Shown piece by piece: positions 6,519 through 18,375 of a stretch of DNA of 26,777 nt. The first letter of the stretch is position 1; every line of letters starts with the position of its first letter. Made by a program: the position numbers and the translations under genes. This DNA is from a virus, in the IMG/VR virus record IMGVR_UViG_3300042484_001797, positions 1 to 26,777 of that record. One strand, 5' to 3'. The notes beneath the pieces are model-generated. The model searched no databases, was not told the DNA's origin, and saw only the letters and a list, made by a program, of their open reading frames with translations.

Positions 6519-6869
6519 CTAATATTGAAAAAGGCCAACGTCAATGTTGTTTGCCTCTGCATTTAAAACTAACTTTGATTTTAGTTGTTTTGGACGACTT
6601 AAAAAAACAAAGTAGTTTACTTGTTTGATATTTTCATTTAACCATTGAGGTGCAGTATTATAAAACTTAATCTTGCGACCTCTTGCTTTCATTCCACGTT
6701 CAGATAAGTTAGCAAACTCTGAAACAAAACTATTTACTCTTACAGGACCAACAGAGTAGATAATAAATTCGTTATCTCCATCTTTCATTTCAGATAGGGC
6801 AACGCTCATAGCACGTAAAAATACGTTATAGTCGTTAAATTCCCTGGTCCCCTGTACTGCCACTATCAT
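6519..6869 (-). CDS. SLOG/DprA-like Rossmann-fold nucleotide-binding protein
   Basis: This 116-residue protein starts MIVAVQGTREFNDYNVFLRA, with strand I-V-A-V then G-T-R-x-F-x-D-Y, the opening motif of SLOG-type (DUF2493/YpsA/DprA-like) proteins that bind nucleotides or nucleic acid. A second strand (FIIYSVGPVRVNSF) and the block SERGMKARGRKIKFY fit the same fold. SLOG proteins include phage accessory proteins, so the function is open. The start overlaps the upstream gene by 35 bases in another frame. The family assignment is moderate, from motif and length. Confidence 0.5.
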   Translation of the reverse strand: MIVAVQGTREFNDYNVFLRAMSVALSEMKDGDNEFIIYSVGPVRVNSFVSEFANLSERGMKARGRKIKFYNTAPQWLNENIKQVNYFVFLSRPKQLKSKLVLNAEANNIDVGLFQY

Positions 6870-7263
6870 TTAGTTCTACCCCTTGTTTTAAGTCATCAAG
6901 TATAGATAACATTTTAGTTAGTTCTTCTTTTGTCATATTTTCAAAATCTAATGGCTTTACAGTATCTTCATCTACTCTGCCATTAATAGCAGTAGCACTG
7001 TAAAAAACATTATCTAATGTCCAATATGCTTTTCCTTCAGTTATTATTACCCTTAACATATTTTTTTGAATATGTTTTTGAGACTGAGTAATAATTTTTG
7101 GCTTATCAAATTTTTGTTTTGGAAGAACATCCTTAATCATTTCATAAACATCACTTTGTCTATGTTTATTTTTTTTCAAGAATGTTATTCTTTTTTTATT
7201 TGATACTTTAATTATAGACCAAGAAACAAACAATGTCAAGCCTATAAGTAATAAATATTCCAT
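6835..7263 (-). CDS. Membrane-anchored hypothetical protein, 142 aa
   Basis: An N-terminal membrane segment (EYLLLIGLTLFVSWSIIKVS) is followed by a basic region (NKKRITFLKKNKHR) and a soluble domain with strand pairs (MLRVIITEGKAYWTLDNVFY) and an acidic helix near the C-terminus. The topology is N-out/C-in by the positive-inside rule. AGGAAG lies about ten bases before the ATG. Its end overlaps the SLOG-like gene by 35 bases, suggesting coupled translation. I do not recognise the family. Confidence 0.6.
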   Translation of the reverse strand: MEYLLLIGLTLFVSWSIIKVSNKKRITFLKKNKHRQSDVYEMIKDVLPKQKFDKPKIITQSQKHIQKNMLRVIITEGKAYWTLDNVFYSATAINGRVDEDTVKPLDFENMTKEELTKMLSILDDLKQGVELNDSGSTGDQGI

Positions 7264-7269
7264 ATTTTA

Positions 7270-7638
7270 CTACTTCCTTAGATCAAATGCAGTTCCTTGC
7301 CAAACCTTTTCTACTTGCTTTTTTTCTCTTTCTACAATTGCACGACTCCATGAAAAACCTGCATCTCCACCCCAAGCATCCCACATAATTCTTCCATTAG
7401 ATGGAAACTCTGGGCCACTATAAAATCCCTTCCCCTTTTTATCTACTTCATGACGAGAAAAAAATGAATACATTCTTTTAACAGTACTAAGAGACATTGC
7501 TCTACCAGCAACTATATCTGTTGCTCTACCCCAGCCTACTGGAGTTCCAGCACCTGTTGCTTTACCGTCTTCTTTCCATTTTAAAGCACGACGAGCAGCA
7601 GCCTTCATACCAGCATTAGGAGTGTATGTATCAGCCAT
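7270..7638 (-). CDS. Conserved phage protein with head-protein-associated domain
   Basis: The 122-residue product starts at the ATG at 7638 (MADTYTPNAGMKAAARRALK). It contains TPVGWGRATDIVAGRAMSLS, then KRMYSFFSRHEVDKKG, FPSNGRIMWDAWGGDAGFSW. I recall this 'AARRAL-W ... G-x-A-R-h-x-x-G--LS--TV-RM-SFF-RHE-D ... G-I-WD-WGGD' block from tailed phages, sometimes fused to head-maturation or portal proteins, so a virion assembly role is plausible but not shown. The frame remains open upstream to a TTG at 7668, but this extension coincides with the end of the 36-aa gene. The ATG here lies within the preceding stop (ATGGCTGA), and GGGAT upstream is a poor ribosome site, so translation is probably coupled. 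Confidence 0.65.
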   Translation of the reverse strand: MADTYTPNAGMKAAARRALKWKEDGKATGAGTPVGWGRATDIVAGRAMSLSTVKRMYSFFSRHEVDKKGKGFYSGPEFPSNGRIMWDAWGGDAGFSWSRAIVEREKKQVEKVWQGTAFDLRK

Positions 7639-7741
7639 TTTTCTTATCCCTTTTTTGTTGCTTGGCAATACGCTTTTCTTTAAGATTCATCTTTGGCTCT
7701 TTTTTTGTATTAGCATTGCCTTTTTGTTCTTTATTTGCCAT
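7631..7741 (-). CDS. Tiny basic protein, 36 aa
   Basis: The product MANKEQKGNAN-TKKEPKMNLKEKRIAKQQK-RDKKNG is almost entirely Lys, Glu, Gln and Asn. AGGAG lies seven bases before the ATG at 7741, the best ribosome site in this cluster, and both ends overlap neighbours: the stop TGA lies inside the next gene's first codons, and the ATG lies in the end of the 52-aa gene. Very short basic proteins in such positions occur in other phages; the role is unknown (nucleic-acid or scaffold binding are guesses). Confidence 0.65.
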   Translation of the reverse strand: MANKEQKGNANTKKEPKMNLKEKRIAKQQKRDKKNG

Positions 7742-7889
7742 TGGTTACTCCTACCTTTGCCTTTGTGTGCGGACCAAGATCTGCTTTTACAGTTCCGTCT
7801 TTTCTTAAACGAACAATTCTGCCATTCTTAATTTGTAAAGAATTAAAAGCGTTGTTTTTAAAATAAGAACCTGAAGATCTATTAGCCAT
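7731..7889 (-). CDS. Small conserved hypothetical protein, 52 aa
   Basis: The 52-residue product begins MANRSSGSYFKNNAFNSLQI and contains KNGRIVRLRKDGTVKADLGP. It is basic, with a likely beta hairpin in the R-I-V-R-L-R-K-D-G-T-V stretch. The start is in a TAATG overlap with the stop of the 316-aa protein and the end overlaps the 36-aa gene by 11 bases. This close coupling in a run of four genes supports a real gene. Function is unknown. Confidence 0.65.
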   Translation of the reverse strand: MANRSSGSYFKNNAFNSLQIKNGRIVRLRKDGTVKADLGPHTKAKVGVTNGK

Positions 7890-8839
7890 TATTTTTCAAA
7901 CCTTAAAGGATTAAATGATCCATCCCAAATACTTTTTGTTGTAGATTGTGATTCTGACTTGTACGTGCCACCACGACGTTTGTATTCTTGAACTACCCAT
8001 GAATTAGCAACTGCAGATGGGTAAACATCAAATTTATCTTTTGCTGCTTGCACTACTGTTGCATATAACTTTGGATTAGATGGTGTTGATCCACCTCTAC
8101 GAGGTTTAATAAACTCGCCATAGTTTGGTTCTTTTGCTTTTTCCATTTCATCATCCATATCTTGTGATTTTCCAACAGGAACACAGTTGGGAACCATACG
8201 GCCATTTTTATCTTTCATGCCACGTTGTTCATATCCAACCCAGCATTTCTTTTCCATATTATCCCACTTATCTTCTTCTTCATTATCTGAAGAATATGAT
8301 TTACTAATTTTTTCATTTAATTTTTCAACTTGAACATTATACATTTCTATTAAAGTTTTAGGGTCTGCTGTTGATGGAATTCCAGATCCATTAGAACCCA
8401 TTTCAACTACAAGATCTACTGATACAGATAGTGATTCAATTTTAATAACTTCAGACATGCGGTGATAAGAAACATAAGGTTTTTCTTTCCAGGCGCCATC
8501 TTCTTCTTCATATTCACGAACAATAACTGGCTTATCATTTTCCATGTATTCCATAGAGTATTCTGATCCTGGTAATCCAAGTAATCCTGGATTAGTCATT
8601 ACATATTCAACACGACCAACCATATTTTTATCATCTTCGCCCATATACATTACGAAGTCGCCTTCTTTAATTTCATTCATATTTTTTCCTATATTCCCTT
8701 CGGAACGATTAATTGCATAAATTTGTGCTGCTGCTTCGCCACGAGTTTGATGACAACCCATAACTTCATTTGTACCTTCTTTTAAAGCGGGATAGCCTGA
8801 ACAACCAAACGACCCTTTAGCACCTATACGATATGGCAT
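7889..8839 (-). CDS. Mosaic conserved phage protein, possible head-associated role
   Basis: The 316-residue product has several separate modules. Residues 1-46 hold two Cys and the GCHQTRGEAAAQIYAIN block, a short motif I recall at the N-terminus of many phage head-maturation proteins. Next comes a small barrel-like segment (KEGDFVMYMGEDDKNMVGRV), like the HVA1/TUDOR type. A middle region is acidic, followed by KKCWVGYEQRGMKDKNGRMV plus PNCVPVGK, and the C-terminal part (YATVVQAAKDKFDVYPSAVA then NSWVVQEYKRRGGTYK) resembles DUF5872. There is no protease motif. It lies at the head of a small gene group and is read from its own promoter with no leader (ATG six bases after the -10). Confidence 0.6.
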   Translation of the reverse strand: MPYRIGAKGSFGCSGYPALKEGTNEVMGCHQTRGEAAAQIYAINRSEGNIGKNMNEIKEGDFVMYMGEDDKNMVGRVEYVMTNPGLLGLPGSEYSMEYMENDKPVIVREYEEEDGAWKEKPYVSYHRMSEVIKIESLSVSVDLVVEMGSNGSGIPSTADPKTLIEMYNVQVEKLNEKISKSYSSDNEEEDKWDNMEKKCWVGYEQRGMKDKNGRMVPNCVPVGKSQDMDDEMEKAKEPNYGEFIKPRRGGSTPSNPKLYATVVQAAKDKFDVYPSAVANSWVVQEYKRRGGTYKSESQSTTKSIWDGSFNPLRFEK

Positions 8840-8845
8840 CTTAGT

Positions 8846-8854
8846 ATTATATCA
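8846..8854 (-). promoter_or_regulatory. Extended -10 promoter, leaderless start (TGA-TATAAT, six bases, ATG)
   Basis: On the minus strand TGATATAAT is followed by ACTAAG and the ATG at 8839. There is no ribosome binding site. The TGA of the extended -10 is also the stop codon of the gene upstream (8852). No -35 is seen. The layout predicts transcription starting at the A of the ATG. Confidence 0.75.
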
Positions 8855-9205
8855 GGTTTTAGGCCTATTGTAGGGTTTTGGCCTAGTAAGACGCTTAAGT
8901 TCTTCTATGGCCCATATTTCATTCTTGTTTAATTTTGCCATTTCAGACTTATCAAATGACTTTTCTGTAAGTGTAACTACTGGATCTTTTGATAAAAAAT
9001 CTATGTCTACATATCCTCTTTCCCACAAAAACAGTATTTCAGCATTAACGCTGTTTAAATGGTCATGATATAACTCTGGCATTAATTCTTTTATTTTTGG
9101 AGTAAAAGAATATAGCAATGAACCATCTTCAGAATCAACCCCTACCACCTCAAGTCCACCATCAAGTATTAACTTTTCAATGATTTCGTTTTCTTCGGAT
9201 GCCAT
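8852..9205 (-). CDS. Hypothetical conserved phage protein, 117 aa
   Basis: From the ATG at 9205 (MASEENEIIEKLILDGGLEV) the product has 117 residues, mostly helical: it contains FTPKIKELMPELYHDHLN, LFLWERGYVDIDFLSKDPVV and a C-terminal KNEIWAIEELKRL. The shape is a small helical/winged domain; I do not recognise a named family, although similar proteins occur in other phages. The start has GGAG six bases upstream, better than the first ATG at 9250, which would overlap thioredoxin by 17 bases and add a basic N-terminal stretch (MKKILKRIFNPDG); that longer start is possible. The stop TGA doubles as the start of the next gene's extended -10. Confidence 0.6.
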   Translation of the reverse strand: MASEENEIIEKLILDGGLEVVGVDSEDGSLLYSFTPKIKELMPELYHDHLNSVNAEILFLWERGYVDIDFLSKDPVVTLTEKSFDKSEMAKLNKNEIWAIEELKRLTRPKPYNRPKT

Positions 9206-9233
9206 TATTTCTCCATCTGGATTAAATATTCTT

Positions 9234-9494
9234 TTAAGTATTTTTTTCATGATTAATAAATTTAATTAAATCTTCTTTTGTTTGTGCTCCAGTTATACGA
9301 TTAATTTCTTTTTTATTTTCAAATAATATAAAAGTTGGAACTGACTTTACTTCAAATCTTTTAACAAGTAGTTGTTCGTAATCAGCATCTATCATTTGAA
9401 ATTGAAATCCTTCTTTTTTTAAATCTTCAACAATAGGACGAACCTTTTTACAAGGTCCACACCAATCTGCTGTAAAATAAAATACAGTTTTCAT
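9234..9494 (-). CDS. trxA: Thioredoxin
   Basis: This 86-residue protein has the complete thioredoxin core: strand V-F-Y-F, active site W11-C12-G13-P14-C15, and the cis-proline strand S-V-P53-T-F-I-L-F. It is a minimal version, lacking part of the N-terminal strand/helix found in the roughly 105-residue cellular protein. It reduces disulfides in the cytosol; in phages thioredoxins may serve ribonucleotide reductase or DNA polymerase (T7 borrows the host's), or protect against oxidants. No ribonucleotide reductase is visible here. It starts ATGA-coupled to the nuclease gene, giving a stable nuclease-thioredoxin pair in the operon. Confidence 0.92.
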   Translation of the reverse strand: MKTVFYFTADWCGPCKKVRPIVEDLKKEGFQFQMIDADYEQLLVKRFEVKSVPTFILFENKKEINRITGAQTKEDLIKFINHEKNT

Positions 9495-9898
9495 TTGCCA
9501 GACTTTGCTCTAGCCTTTTTTAATGCTTCAAAATCTTTAATTTTAGTTTCTCCAAGATATCCCCAAGCATAGCCATCATTAATCATCTTATCGTTTAATG
9601 ACTCTGTGTCGCCATTTACATATATCCAACCAAGGATACGACCATATTTTTCTGACGAGTTCATTTTTTCAGTTTTAATTACAACGGATTTAGCATCTTT
9701 AAGATATTTTTTTAAATAGTCTTTAGATTCAAGACCTAAAGCCTTTTCAACTTTATCAGTTGTGCGTGACTCTGGGGTATCAATACCAGCCAAACGTACA
9801 CGAGATGCAAACATAACATCAAAACCTAAATCAATAACAACATCAATAGTATCTCCATCAACAACATTCTTCACTTCTTTTACAAAATACTCATACAT
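9491..9898 (-). CDS. Staphylococcal-nuclease-like (thermonuclease) protein
   Basis: The 135-residue protein has the SNase OB-fold signature: VVDGDTIDV (residues 12-20), RVRLAGIDTPES (33-44) and KYGRILG (84-90). All three catalytic positions are present: R35, E43 and R87, with D40 for calcium. There is no signal peptide, unlike secreted SNases, so it should act inside the cell or in the virion, perhaps in host DNA breakdown, DNA recycling or repair. ATG at 9898 shares its A with the upstream stop; GGGAG lies ten bases before it. It is coupled to thioredoxin. Confidence in fold and active site is high, biological role is uncertain. Confidence 0.88.
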   Translation of the reverse strand: MYEYFVKEVKNVVDGDTIDVVIDLGFDVMFASRVRLAGIDTPESRTTDKVEKALGLESKDYLKKYLKDAKSVVIKTEKMNSSEKYGRILGWIYVNGDTESLNDKMINDGYAWGYLGETKIKDFEALKKARAKSGK

Positions 9899-10158
9899 TA
9901 GTTTGAACTCCCAATCGTTTTATTTTCTATTAATTTTTCACGCTCATCAATGACCTCTAACATAAAACTCATCATTTTTTGATATGAATCTGAATTATTC
10001 ATTATTTTATTGTAGTGATGACTACAAAACATTAGACTTCCAGACACTCCTTTAACGTTTACCATTGCTTGTGCCTGACATGTATCACAACGATCATTTG
10101 CATCTAATAAATATTTTTTTGCAACTACACTTGGATGATCTTTAACAATGCTACTCAT
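9898..10158 (-). CDS. DUF7455-type zinc-binding protein
   Basis: The 86-residue product from the ATG at 10158 (MSSIVKDHPSVVAKKYLLDA) contains DRCDTCQAQAMVNV and GSLMFCSHHYNKIM, i.e. C-x2-C and C-x-HH metal ligands. This is the pattern of DUF7455 proteins, small zinc-ribbon-like proteins widespread in actinobacteria and their phages and without known function. The frame is open up to an ATG at 10173, but that codon and the next two form the -10 hexamer: TATAAT ends six bases before 10158, so the longer start would lie in untranscribed promoter DNA. Its end shares a base with the nuclease start. Family confidence is good. Confidence 0.75.
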   Translation of the reverse strand: MSSIVKDHPSVVAKKYLLDANDRCDTCQAQAMVNVKGVSGSLMFCSHHYNKIMNNSDSYQKMMSFMLEVIDEREKLIENKTIGSSN

Positions 10159-10164
10159 AGTAAT

Positions 10165-10172
10165 ATTATACA
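10165..10172 (-). promoter_or_regulatory. -10 promoter, leaderless start (TG, TATAAT, six bases, ATG)
   Basis: On the minus strand TGTATAAT is followed by ATTACT and the ATG at 10158. There is no Shine-Dalgarno and no clear -35. The TG lies directly next to the hexamer instead of one base away. The distance matches the other leaderless starts in the window. Confidence 0.6.
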
Positions 10173-10173
10173 T

Positions 10174-10356
10174 CTACTTTCTGTTATCAGTTGAATAAAA
10201 TCCAGTACCGTTAAAAATTGCGCTTACATTAGAGTATACACGAACTAACGGCTTATTGCAAGTTTCACACTGATATCCTGGATCATTACTACTTATAGAT
10301 CTTTCCTTAACTACTCTAGTACCACAAGGCATACAATCATATTCGTACAGTGCCAT
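10174..10356 (-). CDS. FmdB-family zinc-ribbon protein
   Basis: The 60-residue protein begins MALYEYDCMPCGTRVVKERS and has CETCNKPLVRVYSNVSAIFN, then GTGFYSTD. It matches the FmdB/CxxC_CxxC_SSSS family in length and motif order: 'YEY-C--CG', 'C--C', 'R-SNVS-IF-GTGFYSTD', with four cysteines for one zinc. FmdB proteins were named as putative regulators of amidase/formamidase, but their role is unknown. AAAGGAG lies ahead of the start, somewhat far from the ATG. It ends just before the DUF7455 gene promoter and follows the 2OG oxygenase stop within two bases. Confidence 0.85.
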   Translation of the reverse strand: MALYEYDCMPCGTRVVKERSISSNDPGYQCETCNKPLVRVYSNVSAIFNGTGFYSTDNRK

Positions 10357-10358
10357 AA

Positions 10359-10958
10359 CTATCTATCTCTCCTTTCATGTAAAAAACATATTATGTTAAC
10401 CCTATCTCCATCAATAACCTCTTCTACCTCATGAGGTATATCTTCTGATCCAACAAAAGCAATTAATGTTCCTGGGTCTGGCTTTATTGTTAACTCTTGT
10501 TTTGGGAATACCACGTTTCCTCCAGAATAAGAATTTGTTAAATATAATATAACTGAGTAATCTTTGGAGTGTTTTTCATCATAGTTGTCAACGTGTAATG
10601 AATTTTTGCCACCACTTTTCATATGGCTATAAAAATATGATTTTAACATAAGATTTTTATTAAATAAGTTTGATGCAGTTTTTTCAATGTTAGTGAGTAG
10701 TCCTGTAAAAATATCAATTCCTATATTTATATCTTTATCTGGATACCTATTAGATACTTTTTGAAGACCACTAATGTCAAAACTTTCGTGTTCTCCCTTT
10801 CCGCTTCCAAGGCTAGCAAATATTCCAGGTTGATCGGACTCAACTAAATGGTTACCAGAAAATGTTGAAACCAAAAGGTCGCATGTTTCTGAAAATAAAA
10901 AATCTTTAATATAAAATATTTTATTTTTTAAAACCTGTACCTCTTTATTTAATTCCAT
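10359..10958 (-). CDS. 2-oxoglutarate / Fe(II)-dependent dioxygenase, prolyl-4-hydroxylase type
   Basis: This 199-residue protein has the double-stranded-helix motif set: HVDNYDEKH with H122-x-D124, SVILYLTNSYSGGNVVFP, then IPHEVEEV (H176, distal ligand) and DGDRVNI (R186, binds 2-oxoglutarate). Iron ligands and the oxoglutarate Arg are therefore all present. Enzymes of this kind hydroxylate proteins, nucleobases or small molecules; the substrate cannot be read. AGGAG lies five bases before the ATG, after a leader of about 65 bases with its own promoter (-35 TTGCCA, -10 TATAAT) and a palindrome at the predicted start of transcription. Phage 2OG oxygenases are common, often of unknown target. 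FmdB and DUF7455 follow downstream. Confidence 0.88.
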   Translation of the reverse strand: MELNKEVQVLKNKIFYIKDFLFSETCDLLVSTFSGNHLVESDQPGIFASLGSGKGEHESFDISGLQKVSNRYPDKDINIGIDIFTGLLTNIEKTASNLFNKNLMLKSYFYSHMKSGGKNSLHVDNYDEKHSKDYSVILYLTNSYSGGNVVFPKQELTIKPDPGTLIAFVGSEDIPHEVEEVIDGDRVNIICFLHERRDR

Positions 10959-11008
10959 CCATTCTCCTAATTCTAAAAGCAGTTTTTATAGTCATGCTTA
11001 GGACTAAA

Positions 11009-11027
11009 ATGTTGTTAATTACAACAT
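11009..11027. repeat. Perfect inverted repeat at predicted transcription start of 2OG gene
   Basis: ATGTTGT, five bases, ACAACAT (7-base arms). On the minus strand it begins four bases after the TATAAT hexamer at 11032-11037, so it would form a hairpin at the 5' end of the mRNA or serve as an operator. TTTT follows on the minus strand, leaving a weak terminator for the preceding hsp20 gene as an alternative. Confidence 0.55.
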
Positions 11028-11031
11028 ATCT

Positions 11032-11060
11032 ATTATATACTAATCGTTACTTTTTGGCAA
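11032..11060 (-). promoter_or_regulatory. Sigma-70-type promoter for the 2OG oxygenase gene
   Basis: TTGCCA, 17 bases, TATAAT on the minus strand (-35 at 11055-11060, -10 at 11032-11037). Five of six and six of six consensus positions. The -35 lies inside the last codons of hsp20 (stop at 11047). Leader of roughly 65 bases to the ATG at 10958, with an AGGAG site. Confidence 0.75.
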
Positions 11061-11478
11061 CTTTGATTACAATATCCTTTGGTTTCTTATCCTCTGGAAC
11101 AATGCGATCAATATCAATATGTAACATACCATCTTTCATTTCAGCACCAGTTACTTCCATATATTCACCAAGAGCAAAAGTACGAGTAAACTTTCTACCA
11201 GCAATGCCTTTATGAACAATTTCTGCATCTGTTACTTCAACAATTTCTCCTTTAATGATTAATGTTCCATTATCTACTGACACATTAATATCATCTTTAG
11301 AGAACCCAGCAACGGCTAAAGACAACTTGTATGTGTCTTCGTCTAATTTAAGAATGTCGTATGGCGGATATGCCTGACGAGTTGCTAGATTATGTACTGT
11401 ATTTAAACGGTCCAACTCACGGTTGAAACCAATAAAAAATGGATCCTTAAAAAGATCCAATGCAAATGAACTTACCAT
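11047..11478 (-). CDS. Small heat-shock protein (Hsp20 / alpha-crystallin domain)
   Basis: The 143-residue product has the IbpA-like arrangement: N-terminal region with FDPFFIGFNRELDRLN-like phenylalanines (KDPFFIGFNRELDRL), an alpha-crystallin domain from about residue 37 (YDILKLDEDTYKLSLAVAGF, then SKDDINVSVDNGTLIIKGE), the closing AEMKDGMLHIDI, and a C-terminal IVI anchor motif (KDIVIKVAKK). It should act as an ATP-independent holdase in the cytosol. AAGGAG lies seven to eight bases before the ATG. Its own promoter and a palindrome lie about 60 bases upstream, so heat- or stage-dependent expression is possible. Hsp20 genes occur in several aquatic phages. Confidence 0.92.
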   Translation of the reverse strand: MVSSFALDLFKDPFFIGFNRELDRLNTVHNLATRQAYPPYDILKLDEDTYKLSLAVAGFSKDDINVSVDNGTLIIKGEIVEVTDAEIVHKGIAGRKFTRTFALGEYMEVTGAEMKDGMLHIDIDRIVPEDKKPKDIVIKVAKK

Positions 11479-11507
11479 TTTATATCTCCTTTTCAGCGAG
11501 TTTCATT

Positions 11508-11534
11508 TTTGTACCCCCTTTTGGCAGGTACAAA
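11508..11534. repeat. Perfect inverted repeat at predicted transcription start of hsp20
   Basis: TTTGTACC, 11 bases, GGTACAAA (8-base perfect arms). On the minus strand it starts three bases after the TATAAT at 11538-11543, i.e. across the predicted start site. It is not followed by a T-tract in either direction, so an operator or 5'-end hairpin is more likely than a terminator. It does not resemble the CTTGAGT-type HAIR element. Confidence 0.65.
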
Positions 11535-11537
11535 TAT

Positions 11538-11546
11538 ATTATATCA
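11538..11546 (-). promoter_or_regulatory. Extended -10 promoter for hsp20
   Basis: TGATATAAT on the minus strand, a perfect TG-n-TATAAT. No good -35 at 17 bases (TTTCCT). It overlaps the stop region of the carbamoyltransferase gene (stop at 11549). The leader to the hsp20 ATG at 11478 is about 53 bases and carries the inverted repeat. Confidence 0.75.
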
Positions 11547-11548
11547 GA

Positions 11549-12967
11549 TTAGGACAGTATAGGAAAATTATATTGTTTTTGCCATTTTTCTATGTCTAAC
11601 TTATCATTTAATAATGGCTGTCCTTTAATATTTAAACTAGTATTAAGTAATACTGGAACTCCAGTAAGTGCGTGCCAATTAGATAAAACGGCATAAAGTC
11701 CAGGGTGCTGATTTTTATTTATTGTTTGTACTCTAGACGTACCATCTTTATGAACCACCGATGGTATTTTTTCTGGTTGTAAGCATTTAACTGCATATTG
11801 CATATAAGGAGAGTCAAAATCCATATCAAACCATTTATCTGCATATTCTTCTAATACTACTGGGGCAAAAGGCCTAAACATTTCTCTTTGTTTAATAAGA
11901 TTAACTTTGTCTTTAATATCTGGGTCTCTAGGATCTGCCAATATGCTTCTGTTTCCTAATGCTCTTGGTCCGTACTCTGCTCTACCAGATGCAACTGCAA
12001 CTACCTTATCTCTGATTAGATTAGTTATTATTTCATTTATTGGATATTCCCCACCTAAATTATGTCCAAGATATGGAGTTTTCCATTCAATATGTTTTCC
12101 ATATAGTGCTGCTGCTGCACCTAAAGATGATCCAGCATCTCCTGGGTTTGGCATAATCCAAACATCATCAAATATATCCCATAGCATAGTATTAGCAGAG
12201 CAGTTTAGTGCACAACCACCCATAAAAACTAATTCAGTTTTTCCAGTAATGGTTCTTGCCATTTTCATGAATTCCATAAGTCTAAGTTCATATACTTTTT
12301 GAACTGCTGCAGCAATATCAAACTTATCCTGTTCTGTTACCCAGCCCCAGTCAGTAATGCCTTTGTGAAAATTATATTTTTGTTTGTTGTGCTCTGGAAA
12401 ATAATCTCTTACTTTATTGTAATATTTGTTTGCATCCCCATAGGCTGCCATACCCATAAAAATATATTCTTCTTCGTTTGGTTTTAAGCCAACTAATTGT
12501 GTAAATGCAGAATAAAATAATCCAAAACTAACAGGATAGTTTTGTTTATATTTTAATTTAATTTTATTTCCTTCTCCAACCCAAATAGTAGAAGTATTGT
12601 ATTCACCAATTGAATCAAGAACAACAATAACCGCATCATTAAAACTACTAGTATAGTAGCCTGCTGCTGCATGTGAATAATGATGTTTAAAATATTTTAC
12701 TGGAAGGCTTATTGGAATTTTTGGTTTCCAGTCTCCAGCCCCGCCCTTTAAAATAAGCCTAGATCTTTTTAGTTGTGGTTTTTCATAATACGCAATATGT
12801 GTTGGTATTGCATAACTTAATGCATCTATAATAATTTTATCATTGTTATACCAGTCGTTTTTTTGCTTACTATATCTTTCGGCATGTCCAGCAAATAATA
12901 TTTGGCCATCTTTAATTAAAGATACTGATGCATCATGTGATGTTTCATTAATTCCTAATATAATCAT
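11549..12967 (-). CDS. Carbamoyltransferase, NodU/CmcH/TobZ type
   Basis: This 472-residue protein begins MIILGINETSHDASVSLIKD (H11 in the first ATPase-like strand) and has KYFKHHYSHAAAGYY (H95, H96, H99), the metal and carbamoyl-phosphate binding set of the Kae1-like domain. The C-terminal YrdC-like part is seen in GRAEYGPRALGNRSILADPR and in LNTSLNIKGQPL. Known family members transfer a carbamoyl group from carbamoyl phosphate to hydroxyls of sugars or antibiotics through a carbamoyl-adenylate. At 472 residues it is shorter than the usual 550-600. No ribosome site precedes the ATG; the 81 bases upstream are extremely AT-rich. Possible targets are the sugars added by the phage's glycosyltransferases. 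Confidence 0.88.
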   Translation of the reverse strand: MIILGINETSHDASVSLIKDGQILFAGHAERYSKQKNDWYNNDKIIIDALSYAIPTHIAYYEKPQLKRSRLILKGGAGDWKPKIPISLPVKYFKHHYSHAAAGYYTSSFNDAVIVVLDSIGEYNTSTIWVGEGNKIKLKYKQNYPVSFGLFYSAFTQLVGLKPNEEEYIFMGMAAYGDANKYYNKVRDYFPEHNKQKYNFHKGITDWGWVTEQDKFDIAAAVQKVYELRLMEFMKMARTITGKTELVFMGGCALNCSANTMLWDIFDDVWIMPNPGDAGSSLGAAAALYGKHIEWKTPYLGHNLGGEYPINEIITNLIRDKVVAVASGRAEYGPRALGNRSILADPRDPDIKDKVNLIKQREMFRPFAPVVLEEYADKWFDMDFDSPYMQYAVKCLQPEKIPSVVHKDGTSRVQTINKNQHPGLYAVLSNWHALTGVPVLLNTSLNIKGQPLLNDKLDIEKWQKQYNFPILS

Positions 12968-13048
12968 TAGTATATAAAATCATTTCTTTTTTTATTTTTT
13001 TTAATTTTTTTTAATAATATAAATATGGTATAAAAAAATATTTTCACT

Positions 13049-14008
13049 TTATTGTTTATCCATTCTCTTTAAATACTCTTTATAAAAAACATCTGCAACA
13101 TGTTGATTAATATGAATTCCAAAATGGCCCTTTTGTTTTTTATTATGATTACAATCTGAAGCATGATTAAATAATGGATGACTTGATAATTCTTGATGGC
13201 ATCTTAATGTATATTGATTTTCAGGATCATCAAATCCTTTACACATTGGGGAATCCACAAATATATTTTTTATGCTTACAAAATTATTCAATAGTTCTGG
13301 TATCTCTAAGTTAAGATACTCTTCAATCTCATTATCATTATGTAAGGTCCAGATTAAATCAATGCCGTTTGTTTTACAATATTGTTCTAAAATTTGAATA
13401 AAAATAAAACTATAAAATATTGTAACTTCTAGCGGAATTACACTTTCTGGATTATGTGGTATCTTAGAATATTTATCTATTTTATTTTGATTGCCTTCAA
13501 GAATTATTTTTTGTATGATTGGAAGATTTCTTCCATCATCGTAAGATCCATCTTTACTTATTTTTCCAAAAATATTTGGAATATAGGGCAGTTCCATTCT
13601 TCCGTATGGGAAAAAACCAACAATGGTTTTAGGATTACCAAATTCTTTAAAATATTCAAATGCTTTACGTATTTGGCCTTGTATACTATCGCCTGGTTGT
13701 GCTAAATTATGACTTTTTTTATTAACTTTGTTAGAAAAAATTTTTGACCAAATAAATTCTTCTGGTAAGCCACTACCAAATGTATGAGAACAACCCAAAA
13801 TTAAAACTTCTTCTTTATTGATAAAATTCTCACCTCTATAACCATATTTATTTAAATTATAAAATACTGGATAATTAATATCGCCTGAATGAGTTGTGTT
13901 TGATTCTGTTTCTATGTCATCATATTGAAGAATAGAAGATTCTTTTAAATTTCTAACAAATAATTGTTTAAATAGGGTTAGTTTTTTTTCTTTATCTGTG
14001 CTCATCAT
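13049..14008 (-). CDS. SGNH/GDSL-like hydrolase
   Basis: This 319-residue protein carries NKYGYRGENFINKEEVLILG, then CSHTFGSGLPEE: the nucleophile block L-G-C-S74-H-T-F-G-S-G corresponds to the GDS motif. Near the C-terminus GHFGIHINQHVAD (294-306) supplies the catalytic His, H299 probably. An Asn between (NLAQPGDS, residues 101-108) fits block II/III. There is no signal peptide. SGNH enzymes are esterases/acyl hydrolases, often acting on O-acetyl groups of glycans; similar proteins lie beside glycan genes in other phages. The start is uncertain: MMSTDK has two ATGs with GGGG upstream, or it may be leaderless (TACAAT, six bases, ATG). It lies between the peroxidase-like and carbamoyltransferase genes. 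Confidence 0.78.
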   Translation of the reverse strand: MMSTDKEKKLTLFKQLFVRNLKESSILQYDDIETESNTTHSGDINYPVFYNLNKYGYRGENFINKEEVLILGCSHTFGSGLPEEFIWSKIFSNKVNKKSHNLAQPGDSIQGQIRKAFEYFKEFGNPKTIVGFFPYGRMELPYIPNIFGKISKDGSYDDGRNLPIIQKIILEGNQNKIDKYSKIPHNPESVIPLEVTIFYSFIFIQILEQYCKTNGIDLIWTLHNDNEIEEYLNLEIPELLNNFVSIKNIFVDSPMCKGFDDPENQYTLRCHQELSSHPLFNHASDCNHNKKQKGHFGIHINQHVADVFYKEYLKRMDKQ

Positions 14009-14014
14009 ATCCCC

Positions 14015-14020
14015 ATTGTA
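14015..14020 (-). promoter_or_regulatory. Possible -10 (TACAAT), six bases before ATG
   Basis: On the minus strand TACAAT is followed by GGGGAT and the ATG at 14008, the same six-base distance as in the leaderless starts. No TG and no -35 are seen, and GGGG could be a ribosome site for the second ATG (14005), so this is the weakest of the series. Confidence 0.35.
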
Positions 14021-14075
14021 TAATTAATTTTTATTTAAAAACTAAATATTTTTATTTTATATTAGTTTAAAAATG

Positions 14076-14885
14076 TTATGCACTTTGTAAAATATTATTA
14101 AACACAGGATTTACTGGAGATTTATTTCCTGCAATTAATTTTTCTATTTCACTACATATTAGTGCATACTCTTCATTAAACACTTCCATGGTTCTTCCTT
14201 CACCCATTGCTGCAGGAGTTCCATTTTCTATCATTGTTTCTTTAAGGGTTTTTTCTATATCATAATTTAGTGTTGTGCATGTAAAATGTTTTACAACATA
14301 TCCATCTCTGTCTACTAAATATTTTTCATAATTTCCACCCATAAAAGCACCGTTATAAAATCCTGTGTTTAGCCAAGGAGACAAGTATCCACCTTCTGGT
14401 GTCTTATCCTTGATCATTCCTGAACGATTCATTTCTGATAATGATATCATTTGTCTTGCAATTTCTTGATATAGTTCGTGAGGTGGTAAATTATTTTTAC
14501 CCAAACCATTTACACCTTGAGGTAAATCATTTCCTAACTGTTCATTAAGATTTGGATTAGGATTAGATCCTACCATTTCTGAATATTGAAATGTAGTTTT
14601 ATAAACTTCTTCTCCATATGCCTTTGAATCTAGGCCACATGTGATACCTTGTGACCATCTGCCCTTAGTAACTCCTGGTCCGCAATAATCATTTGTTGGA
14701 ATAGCAACTATTTGAAAGTCTTCGCCATTATATTTATCTTGAAGCCATTGAAGAACTTCCATTTGATTTGCATTTCCACAACCAACAGTTGTATTAACAA
14801 CCATTGTAACTTTTCCTTTAAATTGGGATAAATGATTTTCTTTACCCTCAGCAGATTTTAGCGGTATGTTATATAATGATTTCAT
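14076..14885 (-). CDS. Glutathione-peroxidase-like thiol peroxidase, enlarged
   Basis: This 269-residue protein has the thioredoxin-fold peroxidase core: FKGKVTMVVNTTVGCGNANQ with the peroxidatic Cys at about residue 36, then VAIPTNDYCG (matching the 'FPCNQF' strand) and, much later, GGNYEKYLVDRDGYVVKHF (matching the 'WNF-KFLVDRDG-VV-RF' strand). The usual Gln and Trp of the tetrad are replaced by Asn and Gly, so activity is unproven. The protein is about 100 residues longer than common GPx (160-180); an insertion rich in Gly, Asn, Pro sits between the strands. The start at 14885 follows the extended -10 by six bases; an earlier TTG at 14891 would lie between the -10 and the start. No ribosome site. 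Confidence 0.75.
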   Translation of the reverse strand: MKSLYNIPLKSAEGKENHLSQFKGKVTMVVNTTVGCGNANQMEVLQWLQDKYNGEDFQIVAIPTNDYCGPGVTKGRWSQGITCGLDSKAYGEEVYKTTFQYSEMVGSNPNPNLNEQLGNDLPQGVNGLGKNNLPPHELYQEIARQMISLSEMNRSGMIKDKTPEGGYLSPWLNTGFYNGAFMGGNYEKYLVDRDGYVVKHFTCTTLNYDIEKTLKETMIENGTPAAMGEGRTMEVFNEEYALICSEIEKLIAGNKSPVNPVFNNILQSA

Positions 14886-14891
14886 AAACAA

Positions 14892-14900
14892 AGTATATCA
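14892..14900 (-). promoter_or_regulatory. Extended -10 promoter, leaderless start (TGA-TATACT, six bases, ATG)
   Basis: TGATATACT on the minus strand is followed by TTGTTT and the ATG at 14885. No Shine-Dalgarno and no -35 are seen. It lies between the tRNA-Glu 3' end and the peroxidase gene, allowing that gene to be transcribed independently. Confidence 0.7.
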
Positions 14901-14922
14901 TATTTTTGAATAATAACCTTTG

Positions 14923-14995
14923 CGTCCCCAACGGGATTTGAACCCGTGTTAACGCCGTGAAAGGGCGACGTCCTAGGCCACTAGACGATGGGGAC
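14923..14995 (-). tRNA. tRNA-Glu (anticodon TTC)
   Basis: The minus strand carries a complete 73-base cloverleaf. Acceptor arms are GTCCCCA and TGGGGAC; the anticodon loop is CTTTCAC with anticodon TTC, on stem CGCC/GGCG; the T-arm is ACGGG TTCAAAT CCCGT with discriminator G. The 3' CCA is not encoded (GCA follows). It is nearly identical in layout to bacterial tRNA-Glu. At the top of the anticodon stem, position 27/43 is a T-T mismatch. It starts only four bases after the metallopeptidase stop (15000), so it is likely cut from that transcript. It would read GAA and GAG codons. Confidence 0.95.
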
Positions 14996-14999
14996 AATA

Positions 15000-16121
15000 T
15001 TAGACTGAATTTTTTACATACAGTGCAACATTTTTATAAAAATCTGATTCATTAATTTTAAAATATTTTAATAATGTATCATTAAAGTTCTTAGACTTAG
15101 AGTATTCAATTAGAAATTCATCAACAATCTTTCCTTCATATAGATCATACATAGATTCAACGGCTAGCATTCCCATGCTGTAGCCAGCACCATTTTTAAA
15201 ACAATAATTGCTATCAGAGTTAATCTGATTATAAGCATTTATCCAATCTTCTACAGTAAAAGTTTTATAATTGGGAAACATTCTTTGGATATCACGTATT
15301 TGTCCTTGTCTAAAAGAATCCATATTTGTAGTCCTTGAAGACATTGCCATTCCTAAAGCATTTGCTTGTCCCTCAATTACCCAACAATTAAGGTTTGAAT
15401 TAGTCCAAGACATCATCTGATACATGTGTGCCGATTCATGATCTGCAATTATTGCATCATTAGATCCCCATATAGAAGATGATCCTACTATCATATAAAA
15501 TATTGGTGAATTTGGATTTGCATTTCCATATGCACAAACAGTAATATTAGATATTTTGCACTTTCCACTTTCCCACCACTGTAGGTTAGGTCTATCAATT
15601 TCAGATGATTTTTGTATCCACCAATCTTTTTCTGTTTCATCTAAAAAAACCCAAGTTATTTTTTTGTCAACTGGCATTGGAAAAAAATTTACAGATTTTT
15701 CATAGTTAGATACAATTTCATTAACTCTTGACTTATTAACCTTTGGACTAGTAATCACAGTCATTTTAAAGTATTCAGGGCTAGGGTTAAAAGAACCTAA
15801 AATATTTTGATAAATCTTTGTGACTTTTTCTGATTGCGTCGTGTTAACTGGAATGAATTCGCTCTGTGTTGATTTTGTTAAAGGTTTTGAATTTGATTTA
15901 ACTATCCATTTATATCCAGCATTATAGTAACCATCGCCATACGCAGTACAAACTAAAACTTTTTTATTAGAAAGTTTTATGGTTTTATTTAAATTTGATT
16001 TTGAGCAAGATTTATTTGTAAGTTGATATTGCTGAATATTTTTCTTTTCAACTACTGTTGGTGCCTGAGTTGGTGATAATAAAGAGACAGCCGTTACTAC
16101 AGATACACAAACTACGCACAT
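15000..16121 (-). CDS. Exported gluzincin-like zinc metallopeptidase
   Basis: The 373-residue product has an N-terminal hydrophobic stretch (CVVCVSVVTAVSLLSPTQA) that fits a short signal peptide or anchor, though without basic residues before it. The zinc motif is H228-E229-S-A-H232 in IIADHESAHMYQ, and the third ligand is probably E250 in WVIEGQANALG, 18 residues later, the gluzincin spacing. Other parts hold several Cys and a Trp-rich WWESGKCKI segment. It is therefore an exported protease acting outside the membrane or at the surface; the substrate is unknown. AAGGGG lies eight bases before the ATG. The gene lies between a 72-aa protein and the tRNA gene. Confidence 0.72.
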   Translation of the reverse strand: MCVVCVSVVTAVSLLSPTQAPTVVEKKNIQQYQLTNKSCSKSNLNKTIKLSNKKVLVCTAYGDGYYNAGYKWIVKSNSKPLTKSTQSEFIPVNTTQSEKVTKIYQNILGSFNPSPEYFKMTVITSPKVNKSRVNEIVSNYEKSVNFFPMPVDKKITWVFLDETEKDWWIQKSSEIDRPNLQWWESGKCKISNITVCAYGNANPNSPIFYMIVGSSSIWGSNDAIIADHESAHMYQMMSWTNSNLNCWVIEGQANALGMAMSSRTTNMDSFRQGQIRDIQRMFPNYKTFTVEDWINAYNQINSDSNYCFKNGAGYSMGMLAVESMYDLYEGKIVDEFLIEYSKSKNFNDTLLKYFKINESDFYKNVALYVKNSV

Positions 16122-16133
16122 TTGTTTTACCCC

Positions 16134-16352
16134 TTAGTTATTTACTAGTTTAATTACTACCTGACAAGGATCTCCGCCCTCTTCCCACTCTTGGGCTTCT
16201 TCATCACTCATAAAAGGATCTCCTTCGTGAGTGTTACAAAACGGTTCTGTTACCCATCCCCGCTCAATTCCATTAGTTAGCCAAATCTCAAACTCATCAA
16301 GATTTGATGCTTCACTTTGAATATCTCTTAATATGTCGTCAAAATTTGCCAT
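16134..16352 (-). CDS. Conserved phage protein, 72 aa
   Basis: The acidic protein MANFDDILRDIQSEASNLDE then FEIWLTNGIERGWVTEPFCN contains PFCNTHEGDPFMSDEEAQ and GGDPCQVVIKL. The arrangement 'PFCNTHEG-P ... EE ... EGGDPC--V' is a small conserved module I recall from actinophages, with two Cys and one His; the function is unknown. The ATG at 16352 is the predicted +1 of a consensus promoter; there is no ribosome site, so the mRNA should be leaderless. It follows the Ntn hydrolase gene and precedes the metallopeptidase gene. Confidence 0.7.
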   Translation of the reverse strand: MANFDDILRDIQSEASNLDEFEIWLTNGIERGWVTEPFCNTHEGDPFMSDEEAQEWEEGGDPCQVVIKLVNN

Positions 16353-16358
16353 GTATTA

Positions 16359-16387
16359 AGTATACTGCTAAATGCTTACCACGTCAA
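16359..16387 (-). promoter_or_regulatory. Consensus promoter, leaderless start (TTGACG, 17, TATACT, six bases, ATG)
   Basis: On the minus strand TTGACG (16382-16387), 17 bases, TATACT (16359-16364), then TAATAC and the ATG at 16352. Five of six matches in each hexamer. The -35 lies in the 3' end of the Ntn hydrolase gene. Transcription should start at the A of the ATG. Confidence 0.85.
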
Positions 16388-16892
16388 TTGGACCCATACA
16401 TGATGGACTAAATTTAATAGCAGAGTTAACTGCTCCTACAACTCTTTTACGTGGATCTTTAGATTTTTCGGTAGCATTTAAATATCCATAAGCATATTCG
16501 GCACCAGACCCCATTGCTAAATAATCTAAATTATATTTAGATAAAGACATATCAACTGCATTATGTTCATATATTTGTCCTTTAACACAAATTATTAAAC
16601 CAAGATCAGCCTCTTTGCCAGTATCAACCCACCAGTCATTATAAAAATTTTTAAGTTGTTTAATAAACTTAGTTTGCATGAACTTATCTAGATCTTTAAT
16701 ATCTGGGACATATGGATTAAAATTGTATCTGATTCGTTCTCCATCTAAGGCACCAGCATATCCAAGTAAATATGGACCAAGTTTCCAAACCTTTGGTGCT
16801 GTTAAAGCAAGGATTGTATTATCATCAGATGCACCACGATCTCCAGCCATGTACACTTTATTTTCATGACGGACTACAGCCAAAACGGTCAT
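16368..16892 (-). CDS. Proteasome beta-subunit / HslV-like Ntn hydrolase
   Basis: This 174-residue protein begins MTVLAVVRHENKVYMAGDRG. After Met removal T2 would be the N-terminal nucleophile (T1 of proteasomes), D18 fits D17 (AGDRGAS) and K34 fits K33 (APKVWKLG); YLLGYAGALDGE holds the Gly of the oxyanion loop, and MGSGAEYAYGYL the later Ser. All catalytic positions align by spacing. It has no propeptide and is shorter than cellular beta subunits (about 200). HslV/proteasome subunits form ATPase-gated rings; no partner ATPase is visible, so it may self-assemble or use a host AAA protein. AAGGGG lies seven bases before the ATG; its own promoter is at 16921-16949. Confidence 0.8.
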   Translation of the reverse strand: MTVLAVVRHENKVYMAGDRGASDDNTILALTAPKVWKLGPYLLGYAGALDGERIRYNFNPYVPDIKDLDKFMQTKFIKQLKNFYNDWWVDTGKEADLGLIICVKGQIYEHNAVDMSLSKYNLDYLAMGSGAEYAYGYLNATEKSKDPRKRVVGAVNSAIKFSPSCMGPIDVVSI

Positions 16893-16920
16893 ACTAGATC
16901 CCCTTAGAATATACCCTTTA

Positions 16921-16949
16921 AGTATAGCAAATAATTATTGCTTGGTCAA
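16921..16949 (-). promoter_or_regulatory. Consensus promoter for the Ntn hydrolase gene
   Basis: TTGACC (16944-16949), 17 bases, TATACT (16921-16926) on the minus strand, just after the endolysin stop (16956). Leader of about 22 bases to the ATG at 16892, with an AAGGGG ribosome site. Confidence 0.85.
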
Positions 16950-16955
16950 ACACCT

Positions 16956-17567
16956 TTATTTAGTAACTTTATAGCCTTCTGAGGTTAATAGGTCTATAGC
17001 AGCCTGTATTTTTGGGTTTACCTTGGTAGATTTTGATGCTGATCCGCTAGATGGTTTTGAAGCGGTAACAGCAGATTTGCCAAATTTAGGTCTACCAAAC
17101 CCTACAATAGAAACCATAATATTTTTCTTATTTTTCTTATAAGCACGAAGTTTTTTACAAACTTCTCCACCATTACGTTGGCTACCTTTAGGGTCTCCAG
17201 ATGTATTGCCTTCTACACACCATACAGTACCGTCGCCATTATCGGCAACAACAATACCTACGTGAGATATTCTGTCTACCCCATCAGATGGAAAATCAAA
17301 ATATGCAACATCTCCTGGTTCTGGATCTGCTACATCTCCATCAATCCATTGTCCAGCCTTCTTAAATGCTGCTGCACCACCTGGAGTATAAACAGTATTA
17401 GGAATTTTCACTCCTGCTTCGTTTGCACACCAGTTAACAAAAGAGCCACACCAAGGTTGAAAGTCTGCTTTAGTAAACTTGCCATACTTAGTTTCATTAT
17501 CTTTTGGACCCTCTACGGTGCCAATTTCTGCAGTAGCAATTTCAATAAATTTTTCTGCTGATGACAT
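16956..17567 (-). CDS. CHAP-domain endolysin
   Basis: The 203-residue protein has an N-terminal CHAP amidase/endopeptidase domain (residues 1-160): catalytic Cys40 in FQPWCGSFVNWC, His102 in RISHVGIVV, E119/N121 in VEGNTS. CHAP enzymes cut peptidoglycan stem peptides or the amide bond to muramic acid. The C-terminal 45 residues (TASKPSSGSASKSTKVN linker, then KIQAAIDLLTSEGYKVTK) form a small helical module that may bind the wall. There is no signal peptide, so release needs a holin; a two-TM membrane protein is encoded directly upstream. The start overlaps no gene; the ribosome site is poor (GGGA 13 bases away). Confidence 0.92.
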   Translation of the reverse strand: MSSAEKFIEIATAEIGTVEGPKDNETKYGKFTKADFQPWCGSFVNWCANEAGVKIPNTVYTPGGAAAFKKAGQWIDGDVADPEPGDVAYFDFPSDGVDRISHVGIVVADNGDGTVWCVEGNTSGDPKGSQRNGGEVCKKLRAYKKNKKNIMVSIVGFGRPKFGKSAVTASKPSSGSASKSTKVNPKIQAAIDLLTSEGYKVTK

Positions 17568-17569
17568 AA

Positions 17570-17980
17570 TTATTTTTTATCCCAATCAGTATCTACTGGC
17601 TGTTCTTCTGGCATTGCACCGTCTGGTTTAGATAATCTACGTGCCTTAGCATCGTCAATTTCTGCTTCTAATTTTTTATCTGCCATTGTATTTTTGGCAT
17701 CAACTTCCTTGTTTGCAATCTGTGCTGCCATAACATCTTTAGCACCAGATGAACCAATTAATAAACCAGCAAGTGTTCCTGTAATGAATGTTGCTACGCT
17801 TCCAAGAACATTAAAAAACATTTTATCGTTTTCTGATTGTCCTGTAATTGGTTGTGTAACAAATATTAATGCATACATAATTCCTGTTGCTGTTATAAAT
17901 AAAATAGATCCTAATGTGATTCCTAGGATAAACTTTAATCTTGCATCTAACTCTTGAGGAGTTAATCTTTCTTTAGCCAT
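17570..17980 (-). CDS. Two-TM membrane protein, holin candidate
   Basis: The 136-residue protein has TM1 (ILGITLGSILFITATGIMYA, residues 18-37), TM2 (FFNVLGSVATFITGTLAGLL, residues 55-74) and a long charged C-terminal tail (about 55 residues, coiled-coil-like ANKEVDAKNTMADKKLEAEI then DDAKARRL). It lies two bases upstream of the endolysin gene, as phage holins usually do, and has GGAGGG eight bases before its ATG. The tail is long for a holin, so a structural or regulatory membrane protein is possible. It overlaps the end of the lipoprotein gene by eight bases. Confidence 0.6.
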   Translation of the reverse strand: MAKERLTPQELDARLKFILGITLGSILFITATGIMYALIFVTQPITGQSENDKMFFNVLGSVATFITGTLAGLLIGSSGAKDVMAAQIANKEVDAKNTMADKKLEAEIDDAKARRLSKPDGAMPEEQPVDTDWDKK

Positions 17981-18179
17981 TTGTTGTTCCCTCCACCTTT
18001 GGTTGTTCTGCTAAATCTTCTGGACATGCTCCATTAGCAGTACAAATTGGCGGTTTGCATTCTGCTGACTCCCAGTTTGCTGGGTCTTGGCATGGATATC
18101 TATAATGACCATCATATCCACAGCCAGTTAGCCCTACGGCTAAGACAGTTGACATTAGGAATATGCGTATTTTTGACAT
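17973..18179 (-). CDS. Small lipoprotein, 68 aa
   Basis: The protein MSKIRIFLMSTVLAVGLTGC has a signal peptide with lipobox L-T-G-C20 (lipid-attached after C20), then GYDGHYRYPCQDPANWESAE and CKPPICTANGACPEDLAEQ. Four Cys in the mature part (besides the lipid Cys) suggest two disulfides. It is therefore an exported lipoprotein at the outer face of the cell membrane; such phage lipoproteins may block receptor use or DNA entry by later phages. Placement next to the holin/endolysin genes makes a spanin-like or lysis-accessory role possible too. It is read from its own promoter with ATG as the predicted +1. Confidence 0.75.
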   Translation of the reverse strand: MSKIRIFLMSTVLAVGLTGCGYDGHYRYPCQDPANWESAECKPPICTANGACPEDLAEQPKVEGTTNG

Positions 18180-18185
18180 ATTCCC

Positions 18186-18194
18186 ATTATACCA
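18186..18194 (-). promoter_or_regulatory. Extended -10 promoter, leaderless start (TGG-TATAAT, six bases, ATG)
   Basis: TGGTATAAT on the minus strand is followed by GGGAAT and the ATG at 18179. No useful -35 is seen. GGGA is too near the ATG to act as a normal ribosome site. This promoter could switch on the lysis gene group (lipoprotein, holin candidate, endolysin). Confidence 0.75.
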
Positions 18195-18197
18195 AAC

Positions 18198-18374
18198 TTA
18201 TTCGTCTTCTTTACGAATTCCTATGGTTGCAAACCATATGGCTACTGATAATAGGGTTACATACCCTACTACCGTCTTTGCGCTACCCTCTAAAACCACC
18301 CATGCTACAAAGAAGCCCAGGAATGTAAAGTTTTCATTTAGGGCTGCCATACCCCATTGTTTTAACTTTTTCAT
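18198..18374 (-). CDS. Small two-TM membrane protein, 58 aa
   Basis: From the ATG at 18374 the product MKKLKQWGMAALNENFTFLG has TM1 (FTFLGFFVAWVVLEGSA) and TM2 (VVGYVTLLSVAIWFATIGI), ending IRKEDE. AAGGAG lies four to five bases before the ATG and fixes the start; the open frame continues upstream to 18407 but that part lies in the surface-protein gene. Its stop is close to the lipoprotein promoter. It could be a second holin/antiholin beside the 136-aa protein. Confidence 0.65.
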   Translation of the reverse strand: MKKLKQWGMAALNENFTFLGFFVAWVVLEGSAKTVVGYVTLLSVAIWFATIGIRKEDE

Positions 18375-18375
18375 T

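Follow-up and report, generated by a model that had tools for sequence, protein, structure and literature searches.

The virus record IMGVR_UViG_3300042484_001797 in IMG/VR, from a tailed phage, was analyzed over a stretch of 26777 bases (the window), in which five genes share one arrangement at their starts: a TATAAT or TATACT hexamer, the -10 element of a bacterial promoter, ends exactly six bases 5' of the ATG. Judging from the comparisons described below, we consider it very likely that the -10 element in these genes is placed so that transcription would start on the A of the ATG, with a leaderless mRNA as the predicted product. The five sites probably represent a conserved set of leaderless promoters in an actinobacterial phage. 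Such a set is to be expected from the likely host, and leaderless promoters have been predicted earlier in other actinophages; here there is broad comparative support for them as a conserved class in this phage group. The layout is also of practical use, as it helps to set the gene starts in such genomes.

Five start sites and their conservation among relatives

All five sites are on the minus strand, and the genes are named here by the coordinate at which they start. The 8839 gene (7889..8839, 316 amino acids starting with MPYRIG, predicted leaderless) has no assigned function, and a match to DUF5872 near the C terminus of its product falls under the cut-off of that family; its start reads TATAAT-ACTAAG-ATG with the hexamer at 8846..8851, preceded by TGA to give an extended -10 element (TGA-TATAAT). 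The gene at 8852-9250 ends with this TGA, which abuts the hexamer (together 8846-8854) and doubles as the extended -10. The 10158 gene (9898..10158, 86 amino acids, predicted leaderless) belongs to DUF7455 (PF24254) and reads TATAAT-ATTACT-ATG (hexamer 10165..10170), in a family that has neither a -35 element nor the TGn of an extended -10. Its longest open reading frame (ORF) begins 15 bases further upstream, at 10173, but the homologues favor the start at 10158, so this is a case where the layout helps in assigning the start codon. The 14885 gene (14076..14885, 269 amino acids, predicted leaderless) has a glutathione peroxidase-like N terminus (PF00255), and its TATACT-TTGTTT-ATG (hexamer 14892..14897, extended by TGA) is located between a tRNA-Glu gene and the coding sequence. 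The most complete promoter is that of the predicted leaderless 16352 gene (16134..16352, 72 amino acids, no Pfam or PHROG match at E 0.01), which spans 16359..16387 and consists of TTGACG, a 17-base spacer and TATACT-TAATAC-ATG. The last of the five, the 18179 gene (17973..18179, 68 amino acids, predicted leaderless), appears by eye to encode a small lipoprotein-like product with L-T-G-C near the N terminus; it reads TATAAT-GGGAAT-ATG (hexamer 18186..18191, extended by TGG), and it is followed, with one gene in between, by the CHAP endolysin gene. No Shine-Dalgarno (SD) sequence at a usable spacing was seen at any of the five starts, the GGGA of the 18179 gene being only two bases from the ATG. 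A first-pass annotation of this DNA had reported, at these five genes, a hexamer at six bases from the ATG and no SD, and all five sites are as it described them.

The spacing was first of all a matter of counting within the window, for which 39 gene starts were chosen by hand from the ORF list. TATAAT or TATACT is found at a spacer of six bases (k=6) in 5 of the 39, and each of the remaining spacers between 0 and 49 has at most one; at spacer 6 the frequency of the hexamers predicts 0.051 (P 2.8e-9), and the counts at the other spacers predict 0.12 (P 2e-7). Allowing one mismatch raises the number observed to 6, where 0.39-0.55 would be expected (P 4e-6 to 2e-5). The same spacing at internal ATGs would have spoken for coincidence, but it occurs at 5/32 start ATGs and at 0/1054 non-start ATGs of the window. 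The motif count proposed in the first-pass annotation gave a divided answer: counted over every ATG in the window, the loose TANNNT-N6-ATG gives 25 at k=6 and 19 to 45 at the other spacings, which is no enrichment, while the stricter TATAAT/TATACT is enriched at real starts.

Relatives were collected from IMG/VR with the five genes, the terminase and the 14008 gene discussed below, using the best 80 loci in six of the seven scans. Upstream regions were clustered at 80% identity, only rows in which the mapped codon is a start codon were counted, and a hexamer with at most one mismatch to TATAAT and with A2 and T6 kept was taken as -10-like. Such a hexamer stands at spacer 6 in 61 of the 97 upstream clusters of the five genes (8839 15/28, 10158 6/16, 14885 20/27, 16352 9/10, 18179 11/16), and at spacer 7 there are 15 counts (4, 2, 5, 0 and 4, respectively). 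For 18 other genes of the window, the corresponding figures are 11/425 clusters at spacer 6 and 5 at spacer 7. The distance between -10 and ATG over homologous phages, another comparison suggested earlier, is thus mostly six and sometimes seven. The count was repeated with a looser mapping that accepts any in-frame ATG near the mapped start. For the five genes there were 1059 high-scoring segment pairs, from which 301 that began after residue 10 (185 of them from 8839), 8 near a contig end and 388 duplicates were removed, leaving 362 unique start regions. The hexamer is at spacer 6 in 245 of them (8839 20/56, 10158 61/105, 14885 31/51, 16352 84/91, 18179 49/59) and at spacer 7 in 36 more, and the next highest of the spacings scored are 30 at spacer 3, 20 of which come from 10158, and 12 at spacer 11. 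The 18 other genes gave 16/1417 unique regions at spacer 6 and 15 more at spacer 7. Across the five genes, a -10 at spacer 6 or 7 and a strong SD avoid each other: 74 of the 97 clusters have only the -10, 10 only the SD, 2 both and 11 neither (Fisher 1.4e-6). The importance of start mapping was illustrated by the CHAP endolysin gene, which seemed leaderless in 38/137 rows because its start position had been assumed; with ATG-based mapping the number dropped to 0/138, and this candidate was rejected as an artefact.

The peak does not depend on a gene caller. We scored TATAAT/TATACT per spacing in 457 fetched viral loci, some of them sharing contigs. In front of ATGs that open frames of at least 60 codons, the hexamers occur at k=6 in 336/19428 unique contexts, whereas each of the other 24 spacings has 8-81; no peak is seen for ATGs of short frames (85/74426 at spacer 6, 26 to 188 elsewhere) or, at k=6, for GTG starts (7/4699). 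In the loci fetched with the terminase, which were not chosen by the five genes, TATAAT was counted 20 times at k=6, with 9 as the next highest. Clustering of the proteins gave 64 families at spacer 6, versus 11, 27, 17 and 17 at spacers 5, 7, 8 and 12, which suggests that leaderless starts are not confined to the five genes. In Alteromonadaceae loci the count at spacer 6 was 0/1339.

Promoter features and competing explanations

The sequence around the hexamers has further features of promoters. Among 167 representatives picked only by the -10, the spacer and the open frame, the TGn of an extended -10 is present in 67 (background 18%), a -35 matching in at least 5/6 positions at a spacer of 16-18 bases is present in 38 (background 11%), and a T stands directly 5' of the ATG in 71%. 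When divided by family, the features are distributed rather unevenly. TTGAC at exactly 17 bases is found in 20/21 members of the 16352 family and 0/55 in the other four families, and the idea of a -35 common to all leaderless promoters was dropped after this split; TGn is found in 20/20 (8839), 11/17 (14885), 7/10 (18179), 1/21 (16352) and 0/8 (10158). At 91 sites outside the five families both are in modest excess (TGn 28, -35 18). The base before the ATG is more uniform. In 61 leaderless clusters of the five genes it is T in 46, C in 9, G in 6 and A in none; at the 91 outside sites it is T in 56, C in 14, A in 18 and G in 3; in other genes it is A in 231/375. At sites with spacer 7 the T is again directly before the ATG (64% of 47), so that it tracks the ATG. 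A pyrimidine/purine initiator whose +1 is the A of the ATG would give such a base pattern, and a start on that A is supported because the pyrimidine precedes the ATG and shifts with it at spacer 7. The promoter signature and the initiator-like base are thus present overall, the -35/TGn part being missing in the 10158 family.

These features point to ordinary promoters for the housekeeping sigma factor (sigma-70/SigA-type), with the -10 at six, and sometimes seven, bases before the ATG. In addition to TATAAT/TATACT there would be a TTGAC -35 at 17 bases in the 16352 family and mostly a TGn in the 8839, 14885 and 18179 families, with neither in 10158. RNA polymerase would then start at the A of the start codon to produce a leaderless mRNA, which the actinobacterial host would translate with no need for an SD. 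Directly visible in the sequence are the positions, the spacing and its conservation, the missing SD and the promoter and initiator features; the actual 5' ends, the sigma factor, the translation of leaderless mRNA, the timing of expression and the host are all matters we infer.

Several observations weigh against this explanation and need to be kept in view. A consensus scan for sigma-70 sites in 7000-19000 found 59 versus 59.8 expected, which is no excess. In the terminase-fetched loci, TATACT has 16 counts at k=20 and fewer, 12, at k=6, and a small Bacilli/Clostridia set has 4/639 at k=6 and also 4 at k=15. The excess of -35 elements is due mostly to one family: the 38 sites include 20 homologues of 16352 and none from the other four families, the rest lying outside the five, and all 8/8 representatives of the 10158 family lack both -35 and TGn. 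This family also contributes seven of the 11/97 clusters with neither a -10 at spacer 6 or 7 nor a strong SD, and several of its members have TATACT or TATAAT directly 5' of one ATG and about nine bases from a second. Finally, most loci were fetched via the five genes themselves and their share is inflated by this selection, in which, however, the upstream sequence was not used.

How else could the pattern be explained? The 1-kb windows of this DNA are only 26-40% GC, and the AT-rich, short intergenic gaps could supply TATAAT-like hexamers near starts by chance, as could also be read from the absence of a peak for the loose TANNNT over all ATGs. An exact spacing that is kept in diverged homologues, has no counterpart at non-gene ATGs and is absent from low-GC phages of other hosts (at spacer 6, 0/364 in a T4 stretch and 0/278 in a HTVC008M stretch, both of 34% GC) makes coincidence hardly credible. 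The hexamers may instead be true promoters at which transcription begins one or a few positions away from the A, with very short leaders as the result. The minority of sites at spacer 7 and the 10158 homologues whose box is about nine bases from a second ATG would fit such leaders, but the pyrimidine moves with the A of the ATG at spacer 7 just as it should for a start on that A, and we regard short leaders as improbable. Of nearly the same low probability, if marginally higher, is translation mainly from read-through operon mRNA that has no SD, by re-initiation or scanning, with the -10 boxes playing a minor part. The 8839, 10158, 16352 and 18179 genes are indeed only 12-18 bases behind the preceding gene, and a scan found no terminator-like site in the gaps just 5' of the five genes (it gave 4 where 5.5 are expected by chance, one of them at 16419-16434, inside the gene preceding 16352). 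The -10, however, is kept at each site, and the 8839 homologues with a distant -10 usually have a strong SD. The leaderless promoters proposed in the first-pass annotation are favored by the homologue spacing, the k=6 peak at long ORFs and the promoter and initiator features taken together. Its further suggestion, that chosen genes might in this way gain their own route of initiation beside the SD-led operon genes, is weaker.

Two start designs in the 8839 family

The homologues of the 8839 gene come in two designs. Among 44 distinct homologues, 26 have the leaderless form, 15 have a more distant -10 with a strong SD after it, and 3 were neither by rule, of which one has the -10 five bases from the ATG and two have a weaker SD-like stretch. 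Both designs share one extended -10, located either six bases from the ATG with no SD or about 25 bases from it with an AGGAGG-type leader; the SD-bearing leader is about 20 bases longer. The designs recur on separate branches, and to explain the tree one needs a minimum of five switches from one main state to the other, although this is a quick tree with SH-aLRT support only. The family is in effect a natural experiment, with one gene under both modes of initiation. A comparable evolutionary switch of initiation signals has been described in bacterial genomes (PMC3160421). One could go further and picture the gene start as a replaceable unit with two forms, the leaderless -10-N6-ATG and an SD leader that adds about 20 bases after the shared extended -10, and with few intermediates; it would have been swapped repeatedly at one gene and could allow a gene-by-gene route of translation that works when SD-led initiation is impaired during infection. 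This is a speculative idea that we think is unlikely to hold; a repeated exchange between leaderless and SD-led starts at one gene would add to the interest of the system.

Known leaderless genes, the likely host and other genes of the window

Leaderless genes are well known in actinobacteria, as the first-pass annotation stated. In leaderless bacterial genes a TANNNT motif lies some 12 bases 5' of the start, and more than 20% of genes in Actinobacteria are leaderless (PMC3160421); the box and spacer seen here, of six bases each, put the motif at the same position. In Deinococcus radiodurans a -10-like box is about 6-7 bases before the start codon (PMC12340547). The phage genes resemble these TA-led genes of Actinobacteria and Deinococcus-Thermus in the position of the box and in having orthologues that switch the initiation signal (PMC3160421; PMC12340547). 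Unlike those chromosomal genes, they are phage genes, they use TATAAT/TATACT and not the loose TANNNT of high-GC genomes, and they have no GTG peak. The last point also sets them apart from mycobacterial leaderless genes, which use GTG as well as ATG (PMC11855218).

In Corynebacterium diphtheriae, 20% of genes are leaderless, and one of six start sites assigned to prophage genes is leaderless (PMC5784534). Leaderless initiation has also been found in lambda phage (PMC3160421). Leaderless transcripts are reportedly not inhibited by kasugamycin (PMC5230787). Closer to the present case are three predicted promoters of leaderless layout in cluster O mycobacteriophages (PMC4351075) and one in gene 90 of Adephagia (PMC11373665). 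They have in common with the present set that they are promoters of actinobacterial phages with the predicted +1 on the start codon; they number three and one, and the passages describing them report no homologue-wide test of spacing (PMC4351075; PMC11373665). A set of leaderless promoters in one phage, which the first-pass annotation called unusual, is less so given the actinobacterial look of this phage and the three promoters already predicted in cluster O (PMC4351075). The titles and beginnings of abstracts among the papers listed, in a search that excluded subscription papers and preprints, did not reveal a comparative study of leaderless promoters across actinobacterial phages. In an enterobacterial host, a single-gene example is lambda cI, whose mRNA from PRM begins at its AUG.

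The phage looks like an actinobacterial phage, its exact host aside, because of a WhiB-like regulator encoded in the window, which is also present in 5/5 related records searched, and because of the kinship of its terminase. The terminase has 53-54% identity over its full length to those of Streptomyces phages, for 20 among the matches listed; 366 phage records have a terminase match, of which 232 are Streptomyces or Gordonia phages, the remainder including Vibrio and other phages. With at least 600 matching stretches for the terminase in IMG/VR, this is a phage group with many relatives. None of the records in the phage collection matches the first 25 kb of the window at the DNA level. Searches for the host in genome contigs gave 598 candidate stretches with DUF7455, with 0 confirmed relatives, and 20 loci with HSP20, of which 0 had an actinobacterial title. 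The habitat of the IMG/VR contigs may be freshwater, a guess of ours that follows the general theme of PMC10202952. Among the closest named terminases is that of the Streptomyces phage Gilson (Stanwilliamsviridae; 53.8% identity over the full length). Gilson has TATAAT/TATACT at spacer 6 in 7/1339 ATG positions with frames of 45+ codons, with at most 5 at the other spacers from 0 to 24, a weak excess that hints at some leaderless genes there as well. The 8839, 10158 and 14885 proteins, three of the five, were searched against the phage collection and had no match in Gilson at E 1e-5.

A possible sixth member, suggested from its TACAAT, is the 14008 gene (13049..14008, minus strand, 319 amino acids, no Pfam match at E 0.01). 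Its start reads TACAAT-GGGGAT-ATGATG, with the hexamer (14015..14020) six bases before the ATG as suggested, and one homologue of 36% identity has TATAAT six bases from its start. The assignment as leaderless is nevertheless doubtful, since the second ATG, at 14005, could use GGGG as its SD. The collection scan with this gene gave a single related locus, which is 100% identical.

Some neighboring genes deserve a brief mention. The 14885 gene is directly behind the tRNA-Glu on the same strand (14892-14995), and in 10 of its 51 unique homologue starts a tRNA lies no more than 120 bases upstream; processing of the tRNA was considered as the cause of the leaderless class and rejected, as 32/41 leaderless forms of this glutathione peroxidase-like gene have no tRNA within that distance. 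The HSP20 gene (11047-11478) has a same-strand tRNA within 120 bases upstream in 60/114 unique homologue starts, and ARAGORN found no tRNA upstream of it in the window. It is part of a row of auxiliary genes at 9234-12967 that includes thioredoxin, an SNase-type nuclease, a zinc ribbon protein, a 2OG-Fe(II) oxygenase and a carbamoyltransferase. The gene at 16368-16892 is similar to the HslV peptidase family (phrog_1040). Lastly, a perfect sigma-70 consensus, TTGACA-17-TATAAT (12/12), is located at 7211-7239 on the minus strand, just within the start of the gene at 6835-7263.

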